Shown: positions 2,685 through 22,671 of the stretch, piece after piece
How the letters are laid out: each line of letters starts with the position of its first letter
How positions within the stretch are numbered: position 1 is the stretch's first letter
NCBI GenBank assembly: GCA_015062805.1
Contig: SUTQ01000010.1
Span: 1 to 64,000 of the forward strand
Source: Methanosphaera stadtmanae
GTDB taxonomy: Archaea; Methanobacteriota; Methanobacteria; Methanobacteriales; Methanobacteriaceae
Direction of reading: 5' to 3'
Length of the DNA: 64,000 nucleotides
The notes under the pieces: model-generated
Seen by the model: only the letters and a program-made list of their open reading frames with translations
What the model was told of the DNA's origin: nothing
Database searches by the model: none
Translations under genes and position numbers: made by a program

Positions 2685-3245
2685 ATGTCTTTATTAAATG
2701 AAAGTGAATACTTAATAACAGAAAAAGATATTGATCCAACTTTTAAAGAAGAAATTATGGCAAATGGATCAGACAGTTTAGCAGTATGTTACCAATGTGG
2801 TACATGTTCTGGTGCATGTCCATCAGGTAGAAGAACCCCTTACATGGTCAGAAGATTAGTAAGAAAAGCATTAATGGGTATGAAAGAAGCAGTTATATCC
2901 GATGATGCTCTTTGGATGTGTACAACCTGTTATGAATGTCAAGAAAGATGTCCTCGTGACATAAAAATCGTAGAAATTGTTAAAGCAATAAGAAATGTAG
3001 CAGCACATGAAGGATACATGGCTAAAGCACACAAAATGACTGGTTCATTCGTAGCTAAAACTGGTCACGCTGTACCTATCAATGATGATGTAAAAGCTTT
3101 AAGAAAAGAAATTGGTCTTTCAGAAGTACCACCTACAACCCATGCATGTCCTGCAGCTTTAGAAGAAGTACAAGCTTTAATTAAAGCAACAGCATTCGAT
3201 GAATTAATTGGATTCGATTGGGCTACTGGTAACTTAAAAGAATAA
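2685..3245 (+). CDS. hdrC: CoB-CoM heterodisulfide reductase subunit C
   Basis: A 186-residue iron-sulfur subunit of the soluble HdrABC complex, which reduces the CoM-S-S-CoB heterodisulfide at the end of methanogenesis and couples it to ferredoxin reduction by electron bifurcation with the Mvh hydrogenase. Two [4Fe-4S] motifs are visible: CYQCGTCSGACP (about residues 35-46) and CTTCYECQERCP (about 78-89). The start has the ribosome site GGAGTGA. hdrB follows after 30 bases, so the two are an operon; hdrA is not in the window. Codon choice here is more selective than in the neighbours, as expected for a highly expressed gene. Confidence 0.97.
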   Translation: MSLLNESEYLITEKDIDPTFKEEIMANGSDSLAVCYQCGTCSGACPSGRRTPYMVRRLVRKALMGMKEAVISDDALWMCTTCYECQERCPRDIKIVEIVKAIRNVAAHEGYMAKAHKMTGSFVAKTGHAVPINDDVKALRKEIGLSEVPPTTHACPAALEEVQALIKATAFDELIGFDWATGNLKE

Positions 3246-17670: not shown

Positions 17671-18381
17671 TTATGCTTCTACTTTTAAGTAATCGTATAA
17701 GTATACAGCGAAGATTGCTCCAATAATAGGTGCAATTAAGTATACTGGGAATAATTCCCAAGGTGCTGCATTACCTGCTACTGTATTCATAAGCATAGGT
17801 GCGAATACCCTTGAAGGGTTAATACCACAACCACTGAAACCACCGATAGCTACGATGATACCAGCTAATACTAAACCGATACTTAATGCTGCATCTTTAG
17901 CTTGACCGTCAACAGCAGCTGCCATAATACAGTACATTAATAATGCTGTACCTAAGAATTCTATAATGAAGATTCCTACCATTCCAATTCCTGCTACGTC
18001 ACCAACGGATCCTAAAGCACCTATTGCTGAAGCATCTGGTCCTCCAACGAAAAGTAATGCTGCGGATGCAATGATTGAACCAACAAATTGAGCAATTATG
18101 TAAGTTGGTAAGTCAGATGTAGGGAATTTTTTACCAGCCCATAAACCTATAGTTACAGCTGGGTTAAAGTGTGCACCAGATACTGGACCCAATGCATAAA
18201 TTGCTACTGTTAAAGCTAAACCGAATGCTAATCCGATTGCTACCCAATCAGCCATTGTGATTGCTGCAATTTTAAGACCACCGTTTACTAGTAAAACTAA
18301 TACAACTGAAGCTGTACCGAAGAATACTAATATAAATGATCCTATTAATTCTGCTAAAAATTTTTGAATTGTACTTGCCAT
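17671..18381 (-). CDS. aqpM: Aquaporin AqpM
   Basis: A 236-residue six-helix channel for water and possibly small neutral solutes or gases such as H2S. The first half-helix motif is intact (HFNPAVTIGLWAG), but the second reads CGINPSRVFAP, with NPS instead of NPA; the following arginine of the selectivity filter is kept. GGAGG lies eight bases before the ATG at 18381 and decides this start over an upstream in-frame ATG at 18438. Upstream is a palindrome at 18453-18467 sharing its core with the MarR-controlled exporter promoter. Confidence 0.93.
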   Translation of the reverse strand: MASTIQKFLAELIGSFILVFFGTASVVLVLLVNGGLKIAAITMADWVAIGLAFGLALTVAIYALGPVSGAHFNPAVTIGLWAGKKFPTSDLPTYIIAQFVGSIIASAALLFVGGPDASAIGALGSVGDVAGIGMVGIFIIEFLGTALLMYCIMAAAVDGQAKDAALSIGLVLAGIIVAIGGFSGCGINPSRVFAPMLMNTVAGNAAPWELFPVYLIAPIIGAIFAVYLYDYLKVEA

Positions 18382-18452
18382 TTTATTAGCCTCCAAATAT
18401 AAAAAATACAAGAGACACAAACTTTTAGTAATGTTCACACATTAAAAAATAC

Positions 18453-18467
18453 TTTAACTAAGTTAAA
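18453..18467 (-). promoter_or_regulatory. Palindromic operator candidate upstream of aqpM
   Basis: TTTAACT-A-AGTTAAA is a perfect 15-base palindrome 72 to 86 bases before the aqpM start. On the minus strand it directly follows a TATA-like AATAAATTTA, so it would lie between the TATA box and the transcription start. Its 13-base core is identical to the palindrome at 55286-55298 in the marR promoter, and GTATT follows both with at most one extra base. Confidence 0.5.
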
Positions 18468-19041
18468 TTTATTAAAATTTCATGTACAGTATTATATCCA
18501 TCAATTAATGATTTGATTTCGATTAGTTATGTGTACATTTAAACATATTCAAAATTTCTGCCTCCTCTACTTCAAACTTTTATTTAAAGGACTATTTAAA
18601 TTATAGTTTGGTTTTTTTCATTTTGCTTTAATTGAATTATATAATTTTTATTTTTTTGACTCTTTTATTCTGTTTACTTGATTTTTTTTAATTTTTTGTT
18701 TATTAAAATGTAATAATTTTATTTTATTTAGGTTAACGTAAATTCATATTACAATAATTATTTATATAATAATTTTCATAATTTTTTTATACTTTTTAAT
18801 TATAAAATTATTAAAAATTCCTTTAAATTTATTATTAACTTTTTTTAATATTCTATGTAATATTTTTTTCTATAATAGTTTGAATCAATTATTATTCAAT
18901 AAATCAAACTTTTAAATAACTTATTTCAACTTTTGTTGTTTAATATAATATTTAAATAAAATAGGTTATTAATGAAGAAAAATATAAATATTAATAATAT
19001 TTTTAATAAATTATCAATTTAATTAGGGTAGGAAAATTAAA
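18468..19041. other. Long A+T-rich intergenic region between aqpM and egsA
   Basis: About 570 bases without a supportable gene. It holds the divergent promoters of aqpM and egsA. T-runs and TATA-like words are too many to choose a single start point; the likely egsA promoter lies within the last 80 bases, with TAGGGTAGGA as ribosome site. No RNA fold or repeat stood out apart from the palindrome next to aqpM. Confidence 0.5.
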
Positions 19042-20088
19042 ATGGATTTTAGAAATGTTCAATTACCGAGAGAAATACATACAGGTCCTGGTGTAATTAC
19101 CGAAATTGGGGATGTATGTGATAATTTATTATCAGGAAATAATATTACGTTAGTAACGGGTAATACTACTAAAAAAATAGCTGGTAATCAAGTAATTGAA
19201 ATATTGGAAGATAAAAAATATGATGTATCTGTTAGTATAATTTCTTCTGCTACGGATGATTCTGTTGAACAAGTAACGAATACTTTAAATAATTCCGATG
19301 CTGTTTTGGCGGTAGGTGGGGGAAAAATAAACGATGTTGCTAAGGTTGCATCAACTAAAAATAAGATACCATTAATTACCATTCCTACTACAGCTGCACA
19401 TGATGGATTAGTGTCTCCACGTGCTTCTATAAAAAATGATTATGATAGTGTTTCAAAAGAAGTTAATGCACCATTTGCTTTAGTTGCAGACACTCAGATA
19501 ATATCCAGTGCACCTTATAAATTTACTGCATCTGGATTTGCAGATATTATTTCTAATTTGACTGCTGTCGAAGATTGGAAATTAGCTTACAAATTAATCA
19601 ATGAACCATTTAGTGATTCTGCAGCAGCTTTATCAGTAATGACGGCTAATTTGTTAATAGATCAAGCAAAAAATATCAGACCTCGGCATCCCGAAAGTGC
19701 GGGGATAGTTGTTAAAGGTTTGATTAGTAGTGGTATGGCAATTAGTATTGCAAGAAGTAGTAGGCCTGCAAGTGGTTCTGAACATAAATTTAGTCATGCT
19801 TTAGATAAGATAGCACCTAAACCAGCATTACATGGTGAACAATGTGGTGTTGGTACTATAATGATGATGTATTTACAGGGTGGGGATTGGAAAAAAATTA
19901 AATCAGTATTAAAAGAAGTTAAAGCTCCAACAACTGCAAAAGAATTAAAAATTAATGAAGAACACATTATCGAAGCATTAACTAAAGCTCATACTATTAG
20001 AAAAGGTAGATATACTATTTTAGGAGATCGAGGATTAACAGAAGAAGCAGCATTAAATATTGCTTTGAAAACAGGTGTAATAAAATAA
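19042..20088 (+). CDS. egsA: sn-glycerol-1-phosphate dehydrogenase
   Basis: A 348-residue NAD(P)- and zinc-dependent enzyme reducing dihydroxyacetone phosphate to sn-glycerol-1-phosphate, the stereospecific backbone of archaeal lipids. The opening VQLPREIHTGPGVITEIGD is typical. GGGKINDVAK is the nucleotide loop, TTAAHDGLVSPRAS a conserved substrate segment, and the metal ligands come from the histidines in SGSEHKFSHALD and ALHGEQCGVG. Length matches archaeal G1PDH. It starts a run of four closely spaced genes with UPF0179, rpiA and the metal sensor. Confidence 0.96.
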   Translation: MDFRNVQLPREIHTGPGVITEIGDVCDNLLSGNNITLVTGNTTKKIAGNQVIEILEDKKYDVSVSIISSATDDSVEQVTNTLNNSDAVLAVGGGKINDVAKVASTKNKIPLITIPTTAAHDGLVSPRASIKNDYDSVSKEVNAPFALVADTQIISSAPYKFTASGFADIISNLTAVEDWKLAYKLINEPFSDSAAALSVMTANLLIDQAKNIRPRHPESAGIVVKGLISSGMAISIARSSRPASGSEHKFSHALDKIAPKPALHGEQCGVGTIMMMYLQGGDWKKIKSVLKEVKAPTTAKELKINEEHIIEALTKAHTIRKGRYTILGDRGLTEEAALNIALKTGVIK

Positions 20089-20103
20089 TAAGGGAGAAGT
20101 TTT

Positions 20104-20526
20104 ATGATAACATTGATAGGAACTAGTTTAGCTAAAAAAGGATTGGTTTTCACATTTAATGGGGGTTCATCTAAATGTGAATCGTGTAGATTCAAAAGAA
20201 CTTGTTTAAATCTTGAAGAAGGACGAAAATATATTATTAAAAATGTCAAAAGAGTTACTCATAAATGTCCTTTACATAAAGATGGAACAGTTCAAACAGT
20301 TGAAGTTGAACCTGCAACAATTAGAACTGTTGTGGAAACTAAAAAGGCATATAAAGGGTCTACTATTATATTTAGAATCCCAGAGTGTATAGGGGATTGT
20401 GAAAATTATGATATATGTCATCCTGAAGGATTATATAATGATGATAAATGTAAAATAGAAGAGATTGGTCCAGAATTAGTTTGTAAAAATGGAAATAATT
20501 TAACTGAAGTAATATTAAGTCATTAG
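20104..20526 (+). CDS. UPF0179 family protein
   Basis: A 140-residue conserved archaeal protein of unknown function. Its ten cysteines lie mostly in spaced groups: [10 protein letters not shown] near residues 23-32, a single [15 protein letters not shown] (about 97-107) and two more. The pattern suggests bound iron-sulfur or zinc, which is an inference. The ribosome site GGGAGAAG precedes the ATG. It lies 15 bases after egsA and eight before rpiA, so it is probably expressed with both. Confidence 0.85.
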
Positions 20527-20534
20527 GTGTAATT

Positions 20535-21218
20535 ATGGTTGATAGTAATATTTTAAAAGAAAATGTAGGTAAAGAAGCATCTGAATTAATTAAGGATGGA
20601 CAAGTTGTTGGTTTGGGTACCGGTTCTACTACACATCATTTCATCAGATATTTGGGTGAAAGAGTAAGAAATGAAGAATTGGATATATTAGGTATTCCTA
20701 CTTCTTTTCAATCGTTAATTCTTGCAAGAGAATCAGGAATTCAACTAACTACTTTGGATGAATATGATATTGATATATCTGTTGATGGTGCAGATGAAGT
20801 TAGTCCTAGTTTGGATTTAATTAAAGGTGGTGGGGCTGCACACACTATAGAAAAATTAGTTGATAGTTCGGCTGATGAATTTGTTGTTATAGTAGATGAT
20901 AGTAAAATGGTGAATAGTTTAGGTGCTTTCCCTGTTCCTATTGAAATAATCCCAGAATCATTAAGATTGGTAAAAAATGCGGTTTCTGAAATGGGTGGAA
21001 TTCCTGAGTTAAGAATGGGAATTCAGAAAGATGGGCCTGTTATTACAGATAATGGAAATTTTGTTTTAGATACAAAATTTGATTCTATAGAAAATCCTTA
21101 TGAGTTAGAAATTGAGTTAAATACTATTCCAGGAGTATTGGAAAATGGAATTTTTGCAGGAATTACAGATAAAGTGATTGTTGGCAGAGAATCTGGAATT
21201 GATGTAATCGAAAAATAA
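20535..21218 (+). CDS. rpiA: Ribose-5-phosphate isomerase A
   Basis: A 227-residue enzyme interconverting ribose-5-phosphate and ribulose-5-phosphate. All family segments are present: [12 protein letters not shown] (phosphate loop), [10 protein letters not shown] (catalytic aspartates), [13 protein letters not shown] (catalytic glutamate region) and [11 protein letters not shown]. Length is standard. It lies in the egsA-UPF0179-rpiA-metal-sensor gene string; the metal sensor follows after ten bases. Confidence 0.96.
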
Positions 21219-21228
21219 AGGTGATATT

Positions 21229-21501
21229 ATGAAACAGTGTATGGATACAGATAATTTACATAGACGTTTAAGAAAAATAGAAGGTCAGGTTGCAGCTATT
21301 GATCGTATGATTGAAGAGGATATTCCTTGTGAAAATGTTTTGATGCAAGTTAATGCAGCTAAATCTGCATTGAATAAAGTGGGTAGTATTATTCTTGAAG
21401 GACATATGAATCATTGTGTAAAAGATGCAATTGATAAAGGGGATAGTTCTGAAGCAATTGAAGATTTATCTAGGATAATCGATTATTATTCAAGAATTTA
21501 A
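21229..21501 (+). CDS. CsoR/RcnR-family metal-sensing repressor
   Basis: A 90-residue all-helical repressor. It shows the DUF156 layout: LHRRLRKIEGQVAAIDRM in helix 1, then a Cys at about residue 35 (CENVLMQ) and His-x3-Cys in EGHMNHCVKD, matching the C-H-C part of the ligand fingerprint used by Cu(I) or Ni/Co sensors. The metal is not settled by sequence. It ends an operon with rpiA. A palindrome of the type bound by this family lies 84 bases downstream, in front of a tiny membrane-peptide gene, its probable target. Confidence 0.88.
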   Translation: MKQCMDTDNLHRRLRKIEGQVAAIDRMIEEDIPCENVLMQVNAAKSALNKVGSIILEGHMNHCVKDAIDKGDSSEAIEDLSRIIDYYSRI

Positions 21502-21556
21502 TTATAAAATATTTTTTACTATTTTTCAATCTTTTTTTTATAAAAATAACATCATG

Positions 21557-21564
21557 TTTATATA
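21557..21564 (+). promoter_or_regulatory. TATA box of the 41-residue membrane peptide gene
   Basis: TTTATATA, about 21 bases before the operator at 21585-21602. Archaeal transcription starts roughly 22 to 27 bases after the box, so the start point would fall inside the operator. Confidence 0.6.
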
Positions 21565-21584
21565 CTATCTAATTTATATTACTA

Positions 21585-21602
21585 TATACCCAAGGGGGTA
21601 TA
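21585..21602 (+). promoter_or_regulatory. CsoR/RcnR-type operator
   Basis: TATACCC (21585-21591) and GGGTATA (21596-21602) are a perfect seven-base inverted repeat around AAGG. A TAcccc/ggggTA dyad with a G/C-tract centre is the known operator class of CsoR, RcnR and FrmR proteins. It is striking in this A+T-rich background and lies just downstream of the sensor gene. A second dyad, ATAACA-A-TGTTAT, occupies 21614-21626. Confidence 0.75.
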
Positions 21603-21661
21603 AGTATAATTACATAACAATGTTATATTATTATGTTATAATGAATTCAAAGGTGAGAAAA

Positions 21662-21787
21662 ATGAACATGATTAAAAAAGTACAAAATTTCATCGTAAAT
21701 ATTTCAGGATGTTTATTCATGTTATTAGTTATGTTTTATTTAAATTACTATGAATTTAATCCTATTTACAAACCAATATACAATTAA
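21662..21787 (+). CDS. 41-residue single-span membrane peptide, putative metal-responsive gene
   Basis: A very short gene: a basic, amphipathic start (NMIKKVQNF), a hydrophobic helix over residues about 11-27 containing one cysteine (ISGCLFMLLVMFYL), and a tyrosine/proline-rich tail ending YKPIYN. AAGGTGAG seven bases before the ATG supports translation from 21662; an earlier in-frame start at 21554 would lie upstream of the operator and is unlikely. It follows a TATA box and a CsoR-type operator, so it is probably induced by the metal sensed by the adjacent repressor. The function is unknown; it may be a small transport or sensor-kinase helper. Confidence 0.55.
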   Translation: MNMIKKVQNFIVNISGCLFMLLVMFYLNYYEFNPIYKPIYN

Positions 21788-21837: not shown

Positions 21838-22671
21838 TCATTCTTTATATAAACCTCTTAACAATTTAATTTCTTCTTTATAACCTTCAACATCATTAGG
21901 AGTCTCCAAGAAAAATGGGAGATTTCTTAATGATTTATGATTTATGATATTGGTTATAGCATCCAATCCCAATTTACCTAATCCTATTTTTTCATGTCTA
22001 TCTTTATGACTATTCAATCCATATATACTGTCATTTAAATGTATGGCTTTCAATCTGTTTAAACCAATAACAGAGTTAAATTCATCTAAAACATTGTCTA
22101 AATCATTTTTAATATCATAACCTGCATCATAAACGTGACATGTATCTAAACATACTCCTAATTTTTCGTCTATTTCAACTTTTTCAATAATACTATTTAA
22201 TTCGTCAAAAGTTCTACCAATTTCTGTACCTTTGCCTGCCATTGTTTCTAGAAGAATGGTTGTTTTTTGGTTTTCATCAATTAACTTATTTAAAGAAGTA
22301 CTAATTAGTTCAATACCTTTTTCAGCTCCCTGTCCAACATGGCTTCCTGGATGGAAATTGTATAAGTTATTTGGTAGTTGTGATAATCTTTTTAGATCAT
22401 CTTCAAATAATTCATAAGAATTGCTTCTAGTTTTATCTGATTTTGAAGCTAGATTGATGACATAGGGTGCATGGGCTAAAATAATTTCAATATTGCTGTT
22501 CTGCATTATTTCTTCAAATTTACTAATATCTTCAGGGTCTAGTTCTTTAGCTTTTCCACCTCGTGGACTGCGAGGAAAAAATTGAAAAGTATTTGCATCT
22601 ATACTAAGAGCTTCTAAACCTATTTTCTCAAATCCTTTATTTATTGATAAATGGGCGCCAATTGTAAACAT
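21838..22671 (-). CDS. nfo: Deoxyribonuclease IV (AP endonuclease)
   Basis: A 277-residue zinc-dependent endonuclease that cuts DNA at abasic sites in base-excision repair. Family segments: [13 protein letters not shown] at the start, [80 protein letters not shown] and LETPND. The metal ligands (His, Glu, Asp) in these are all kept. GGAGAAG precedes the ATG. It is convergent with the metal-peptide gene and divergent from the epimerase gene. Confidence 0.96.

Follow-up and report, generated by a model that had tools for sequence, protein, structure and literature searches.

A CsoR-type repressor, its predicted operator and a conserved, predicted membrane micropeptide in Methanosphaera

The sequence analyzed (the window) is a stretch of 64,000 nt from Methanosphaera stadtmanae, a gut and rumen methanogen (contig SUTQ01000010.1, positions 1–64,000 of the forward strand; assembly GCA_015062805.1). 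Its genome, the own genome (G000), was compared within a set of 20 Methanosphaera genomes. On the plus strand, a UPF0179 gene (20104–20526) and rpiA (20535–21218; Pfam) were found to precede csoR (21229–21501) with a gap of 10 nt between rpiA and csoR, and csoR seems to be carried by this housekeeping operon. No dyad at up to 4 mismatches was detected across positions 18000–21300, ahead of csoR. A T8 tract (21532–21539, plus strand) is, judging from its sequence, the likely end of the csoR transcript; a terminator scan of the locus found no hairpin terminator. A TATA box, TTTATATA (21557–21564, plus strand), starts 28 nt ahead of the dyad TATACCCAAGGGGGTATA (21585–21602), which is organized as TATACCC-AAGG-GGGTATA without any mismatch, is of the type-2 CsoR site type and lies over the expected transcription start. 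Downstream on the plus strand, a ribosome-binding site GGTGA (21652–21656), with like elements ahead of most homologues, precedes a 41-codon ORF designated F1, MNMIKKVQNFIVNISGCLFMLLVMFYLNYYEFNPIYKPIYN, with its ATG at 21662 and its stop at 21787. The next gene, an AP-endonuclease-2/TIM-barrel gene of the endonuclease IV type (21838–22671, minus strand; Pfam PF01261), is convergent and outside the system, and F1 is therefore monocistronic and not a leader of a downstream gene. Bacterial sigma-70 promoter scans were set aside as meaningless for an archaeal promoter. The csoR gene, the TATA box, the perfect dyad and the 41-residue ORF with one Cys were all found where the initial annotation had placed them.

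The csoR product belongs to the DUF156 family (PF02583; score 98.6 bits, cut-off 22.8, E 2.8e-28), its best PDB relatives are the solved CsoR and InrS, and it is the sole repressor of this family encoded in the own genome. One PF02583 gene per genome was found in 19 out of 20 Methanosphaera genomes, the exception (G005) being a 72% complete assembly. Alignment to the solved relatives and to related loci placed the X-Y-Z metal ligand positions at C34, H59 and C63, a Cys-His-Cys set as in the CsoR/RcnR family; in addition, an N-terminal C4 is invariant and H59 is conserved in the csoR clade. PF02583 was not found in four archaeal control genomes, which would fit transfer of csoR from gut bacteria. 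Close bacterial relatives of csoR (63–67% identity) were examined at four loci, L110, L112 and L117 of Veillonella and L118; neither a good dyad nor a P-type ATPase lay within 5 kb.

A type-2 operator near the controlled promoters, as expected of the CsoR/RcnR family, was found in the window. The consensus operator of Streptomyces lividans CsoR, ATATACCCCTNAGGGGTATAT, is of this type (PMC3902906), and the window dyad matches it except in the spacer, which is one base shorter in the window dyad. In the own genome, the scan proposed earlier (1 mismatch at most) gave 8 dyad sites, and none for a reversed control pattern. At the same threshold, the 20 Methanosphaera genomes held 86 sites compared to 4 in the control, counts in which copies in related genomes are non-independent events and to which several incomplete metagenome assemblies contribute. 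Outside the genus, 36 searched genomes without csoR showed 5 dyad sites compared to 15 control sites, and five csoR-bearing genomes of other genera showed 4 dyad sites, every one beside csoR. A TATA box starts 27–32 nt upstream of the dyad, mostly at exactly 30 nt, at 63 of 74 distinct sites (85%), the corresponding shares being 7% for random positions and 14% for shuffled flanks, and the dyad therefore sits on the expected transcription start. At the feoA promoter, a second dyad 26 nt upstream also overlaps the TATA box. It might be argued that the dyad is the site of some other regulator and that its place next to csoR is accidental, as Methanosphaera csoR is itself free of the dyad and binding of CsoR to it is a prediction. 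This is very improbable, since the dyad is of the published CsoR operator type, tracks csoR across genomes and borders it in both Methanobrevibacter and gut Firmicutes. The dyad is thus a predicted CsoR operator, and dyads occur where csoR occurs.

A search with a profile of 14 homologues detected 19 copies of F1 in 16 of the 20 Methanosphaera genomes. G004 contributes two of these copies and G011 three in tandem, and the G017 copy is truncated by a contig end. A dyad with a 4-base spacer and at most 2 mismatches was present within 350 nt upstream of 18 of the 19 copies, and the remaining copy, in G007, is preceded by a perfect dyad with a 5-base spacer. Four copies (in G003, on contig C4 of G004, in G007 and in G012) lie away from csoR, and the link between peptide and dyad is therefore independent of the csoR neighborhood. 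One genome, G001, has retained the dyad behind csoR and lost F1, and no convincing match to F1 was found in 119 other Methanobacteriaceae genomes, which confines it to Methanosphaera. The dN/dS ratio of F1 was 0.11 compared to G006 and 0.13 compared to G010, pointing to purifying selection. In the alignment, F25, Y26, Y30, E31, P34 and Y36 are invariant or nearly so and make up a conserved end, FYLxxYExxPIYxP. The single Cys of the window peptide, C17, which the initial annotation had treated as a key feature, is present in only part of the family; as it is not conserved in the alignment, Cys was rejected as a defining metal ligand of F1. The AlphaFold model consists of one helix (residues 2–32, mean pLDDT 91.7) and the hydropathy maximum is 1.99; with its 41 residues and a predicted single transmembrane helix, F1 resembles the micropeptide partners of P-type ATPases (PacL, KdpF, MgtS), which are single-span and below about 100 residues. 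It matches no Pfam family and shows no sequence membership in DUF1490 or DUF6110, the PacL-related families.

Other dyad promoters seem to drive non-coding RNA, and the 41-codon ORF could by analogy be untranslated or a mere leader, with the RNA or the promoter being what matters. We consider this hardly probable for F1, given the low dN/dS ratios, the conserved protein motif, the ribosome-binding site and the lack of any same-strand downstream gene into which a leader could lead. The F1 ORF is a real, conserved gene, and its product would be translated and inserted into the membrane. The reading of the locus as a metal-sensor operator ahead of a real, conserved membrane micropeptide is in this respect upheld, and the loss of conservation that had been named as its refutation was not observed, as both the dyad and the peptide reading frame are kept in Methanosphaera.

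That no classical target lies next to csoR held for the window, in which no P-type ATPase is adjacent; it did not hold more widely, as dyads front P1B-type ATPases within the genus and, next to csoR, in Methanobrevibacter. Among Methanosphaera P1B-ATPases of the dyad type (at least 58% identity), the dyad was present in all seven examined, compared to none of six sequences from a paralogue group at 43% identity. Genomes of the Methanobrevibacter type have a P1B-type ATPase after csoR, usually with dyads ahead of csoR, the ATPase or both, and in some gut Firmicutes csoR and the dyad were found together with the same kind of ATPase. In one Blautia genome, the dyad, a DUF6110 gene, a CtpC-like ATPase gene and csoR stand in a row. 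A corresponding pair in the own genome, a DUF6110-type gene and a CtpC-like P-type ATPase gene on the minus strand of contig C3 (L163/L215), is among the predicted targets, and the 117-residue protein ahead of the ATPase matched DUF6110 with 32.2 bits (cut-off 26). In this ATPase the CPC motif is replaced by YSCS, and the dyad is followed by a long leader of about 280 nt. No dyad was found in the neighborhood of the CopA-like ATPase of the own genome.

In G004, the order dyad, F1, P1B-ATPase was found on the minus strand (L185; C4:52300–56400) as an apparent operon, the two genes being some 24 nt apart. This gene order is the strongest hint at the function of F1, in which the ATPase would be its partner. 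Apart from the operator type that peptide and ATPases share across the genus, the link is operonic in this one genome, most F1 copies being monocistronic or beside csoR. The own genome has no ATPase of the G004 type, and the partner of F1 there must therefore differ and might be the ATPase on contig C11, the CtpC-like one or something else.

When each dyad site was oriented by its TATA box, further predicted targets could be assigned in the own genome. These comprise, behind dyad promoters, a 63-residue membrane peptide, F2 (C20:86814, minus strand), and a 40-residue soluble peptide, F3 (C17:13049), as well as a 30-residue membrane peptide, F5, followed by an AbrB/MazE-like gene (C38 near 92660, minus strand), and a 27-residue peptide, F7, located 130 nt after a dyad at 25018 of C38 (L167). 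Besides these peptides, feoA with tandem dyads (C20) and a DnaJ-domain gene (C17:46312, minus strand) were assigned. Genus-wide, the dyad was present ahead of F2 in 6 of 6, of F3 in 5 of 7 and of F5 in 4 of 4 cases, the latter being the F5 copies with intact upstream sequence. An F4 peptide was found in G003 and G014, and further single peptides lie behind dyads in other genomes. Micropeptide families of less than 35 residues rest on few sequences and F7 on two, namely F7 itself and a 25-residue peptide of G008 (L181), which share an R.RW..I....I motif and both lie behind dyads. One close pair of F2 sequences gave an omega of 1.3 based on few sites. The HcyBio, DUF1847, MarR-MATE and ferredoxin genes were rejected as targets, since TATA orientation placed them on the wrong side as divergent neighbors. 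G016 carries the csoR that has diverged furthest (66% identity), and its dyads are flanked by a cobalt transporter gene of the cbiM type on one side and, on the other, by the gene of a 612-residue secreted-type protein (L205; C110:5600–9700).

A tandem-dyad promoter on C20 of the own genome is followed by a non-coding stretch with a terminal hairpin and a T-run. Conserved stretches of this kind, about 115–170 nt long and with a common core, ATCATTTAAAATCACATATTTA, were found directly behind dyads near feoA at L166 (G000 C20:85000–91500; 2921–3049, minus strand), L179 (2632–2800 and 2184–2336, minus strand), L195 (2068–2214), L209 (2472–2610) and L194 (2017–2124). They contain no ORF longer than 21 codons. 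An Rfam search gave no match and consensus folding found no common base pairs, and our claim is therefore limited to sequence conservation and the terminal hairpin; within these limits, the stretch is a candidate small RNA that CsoR would control.

With respect to the signal sensed, the Cys/His pattern does not predict the sensed metal in the CsoR family (PMC4235346). The second-shell Tyr (position A) and Glu (position B) of the Cu(I) subgroup were not found in the window CsoR: position A is Pro33, Pro as in the Ni sensor InrS, and position B is Asp79 by offset to Glu98 of InrS. Given these second-shell differences and the lack of a dyad at the own genome's CopA-like gene, the reading as a simple Cu(I) sensor was not adopted. 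The hints from regulated genes diverge, including CtpC-like ATPase (zinc or manganese by homology), FeoA (iron) and, in G016, CbiM (cobalt). It is also conceivable, and in our view quite improbable, that the repressor senses no metal and responds to persulfide or sulfide like CstR or to an aldehyde like FrmR. Both Cys residues of CstR-type sensors (X and Z) are present, and some genes divergent from dyads are sulfur or Fe-S genes (HcyBio, ferredoxin); promoter orientation, however, makes these genes neighbors rather than targets. CstR is characterized by the lack of His at position Y and by targets in sulfur metabolism, whereas H59, the Y-position His of metal sensors, is conserved here and the targets are metal-transport genes. 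Methanosphaera lives on methanol, and for this reason formaldehyde sensing of the FrmR type was considered; the metal-transport targets argue against it as well.

Taken together, the best overall explanation, to which we give a little better than an even chance, is that F1 is derepressed by metal and acts on a metal-transport membrane protein within a genome-wide CsoR regulon. Without metal, CsoR would occupy the type-2 dyad over the transcription start and block RNA polymerase at the TATA promoter. Binding of a transition metal at C34, H59 and C63, perhaps together with C4, would free CsoR from the dyad, and transcription would yield the 41-residue single-span F1, to be inserted into the membrane. 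F1 may then use its conserved end to modulate a protein of metal transport, much as KdpF, MgtS or PacL do; a P1B-type ATPase is the most likely candidate. P1B-ATPases (where present), the DUF6110-type gene with the CtpC-like ATPase, feoA, the DnaJ-like genes and several further families of micropeptides would be turned on by the same signal, and so, probably, would a small RNA. Sequence evidence supports the operator family, the promoter geometry, the single CsoR per genome, the conserved status of the peptide and its association with the dyad; the partner of F1 is the weakest part of the mechanism. Counting against this explanation are the dyad-free CopA-like ATPase and the poor fit to a simple copper sensor, the lack of an F1-linked ATPase in the own genome, the loss of F1 in G001, the confinement of F1 to Methanosphaera and the omega of 1.3 in the F2 pair.

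Under the same CsoR control, F1 could instead act elsewhere than on a transporter, as a membrane-stress, metal-binding or growth-inhibiting peptide under metal stress, which we regard as unlikely. The candidate partner is proposed from gene order, and the G004 ATPase behind F1 has no counterpart in the own genome; likewise, the DnaJ-like genes and the unrelated micropeptides of the regulon are what one would expect of a general stress response, and F1 occurs in tandem copies in G011. On the other hand, the residues that are conserved (Y, F, E and P) do not form a metal-binding Cys/His set, and the sole operonic partner observed is a P1B-ATPase. Action of F1 on a metal-transport protein is the reading that we prefer.

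To our knowledge, CsoR-type sensors have been little studied in archaea. The initial annotation had regarded the micropeptide as a target type not described for this repressor family in methanogens, and no description of a CsoR regulon in methanogens was found in the open-access literature, most subscription papers lying outside this coverage. Small targets as such are known, as the CsoR paralogue RicR of M. tuberculosis controls socAB ("small ORF induced by copper A and B") and the 53-residue MymT (PMC10470581). The RicR regulon (socAB, mymT, lpqS, cysK2) resembles the one predicted here in that a CsoR-family repressor controls scattered loci including very small proteins. It differs in being bacterial and in RicR controlling its own promoter, whereas no dyad precedes csoR in Methanosphaera. 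The small proteins of the two regulons share no sequence relationship, and MymT is a Cys-based metallothionein whereas several Methanosphaera targets are predicted single-span membrane peptides. CsoR of S. lividans and B. subtilis shares the type-2 dyad of the TATACCC/GGGTATA type, but its usual targets are copper export genes of the copZA type, while the Methanosphaera CopA-like gene is dyad-free and most dyad promoters have no copper gene.

Small single-span proteins that stabilize and cluster P-type ATPases (CtpC/CtpG/CtpV) and bind metal are known as PacL1–3 (DUF1490; PMC13043812, PMC9374683). The DUF6110/DUF1490-like gene ahead of the CtpC-like ATPase in the own genome is a likely relative, whereas F1 is much smaller than PacL, lacks an evident metal-binding motif at its C-terminus, does not resemble PacL in sequence and is linked to an ATPase in one genome only. 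KdpF, a single-span peptide of about 30 residues, occurs with a P-type ATPase (PMC3618439). KdpF and MgtS, at about 30 residues, resemble F1 as predicted here in being small single-span peptides regulated by a metal or ion, and they belong to P-type ATPases, either as part of the operon or at the protein itself; they differ from F1 in ATPase class and regulator and show no sequence similarity to it, so that the proposed role of F1 is one by analogy. MgtS is a micropeptide acting on MgtA. As judged from these comparisons, the repressor and its predicted operator are members of the CsoR family, and the predicted micropeptide-rich regulon in an archaeon would be the new element.

A wider proposal, which we put forward tentatively and regard as rather doubtful, is that an acquired bacterial-type repressor has become a master switch, that about half of the promoters it controls make micropeptides of 25–63 residues, in addition to a regulatory RNA, and that F1 tunes a P1B-type pump as the archaeal equivalent of sarcolipin, MgtS or KdpF. 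A single dyad motif gives access to several micropeptide families that lack annotation and to a candidate small RNA, with metal stress as their functional context, and the dyad promoters may serve as short, single-promoter reporters for which metal a methanogen cell senses. If the preferred explanation is true, membrane micropeptides acting in metal transport would be extended to archaea.
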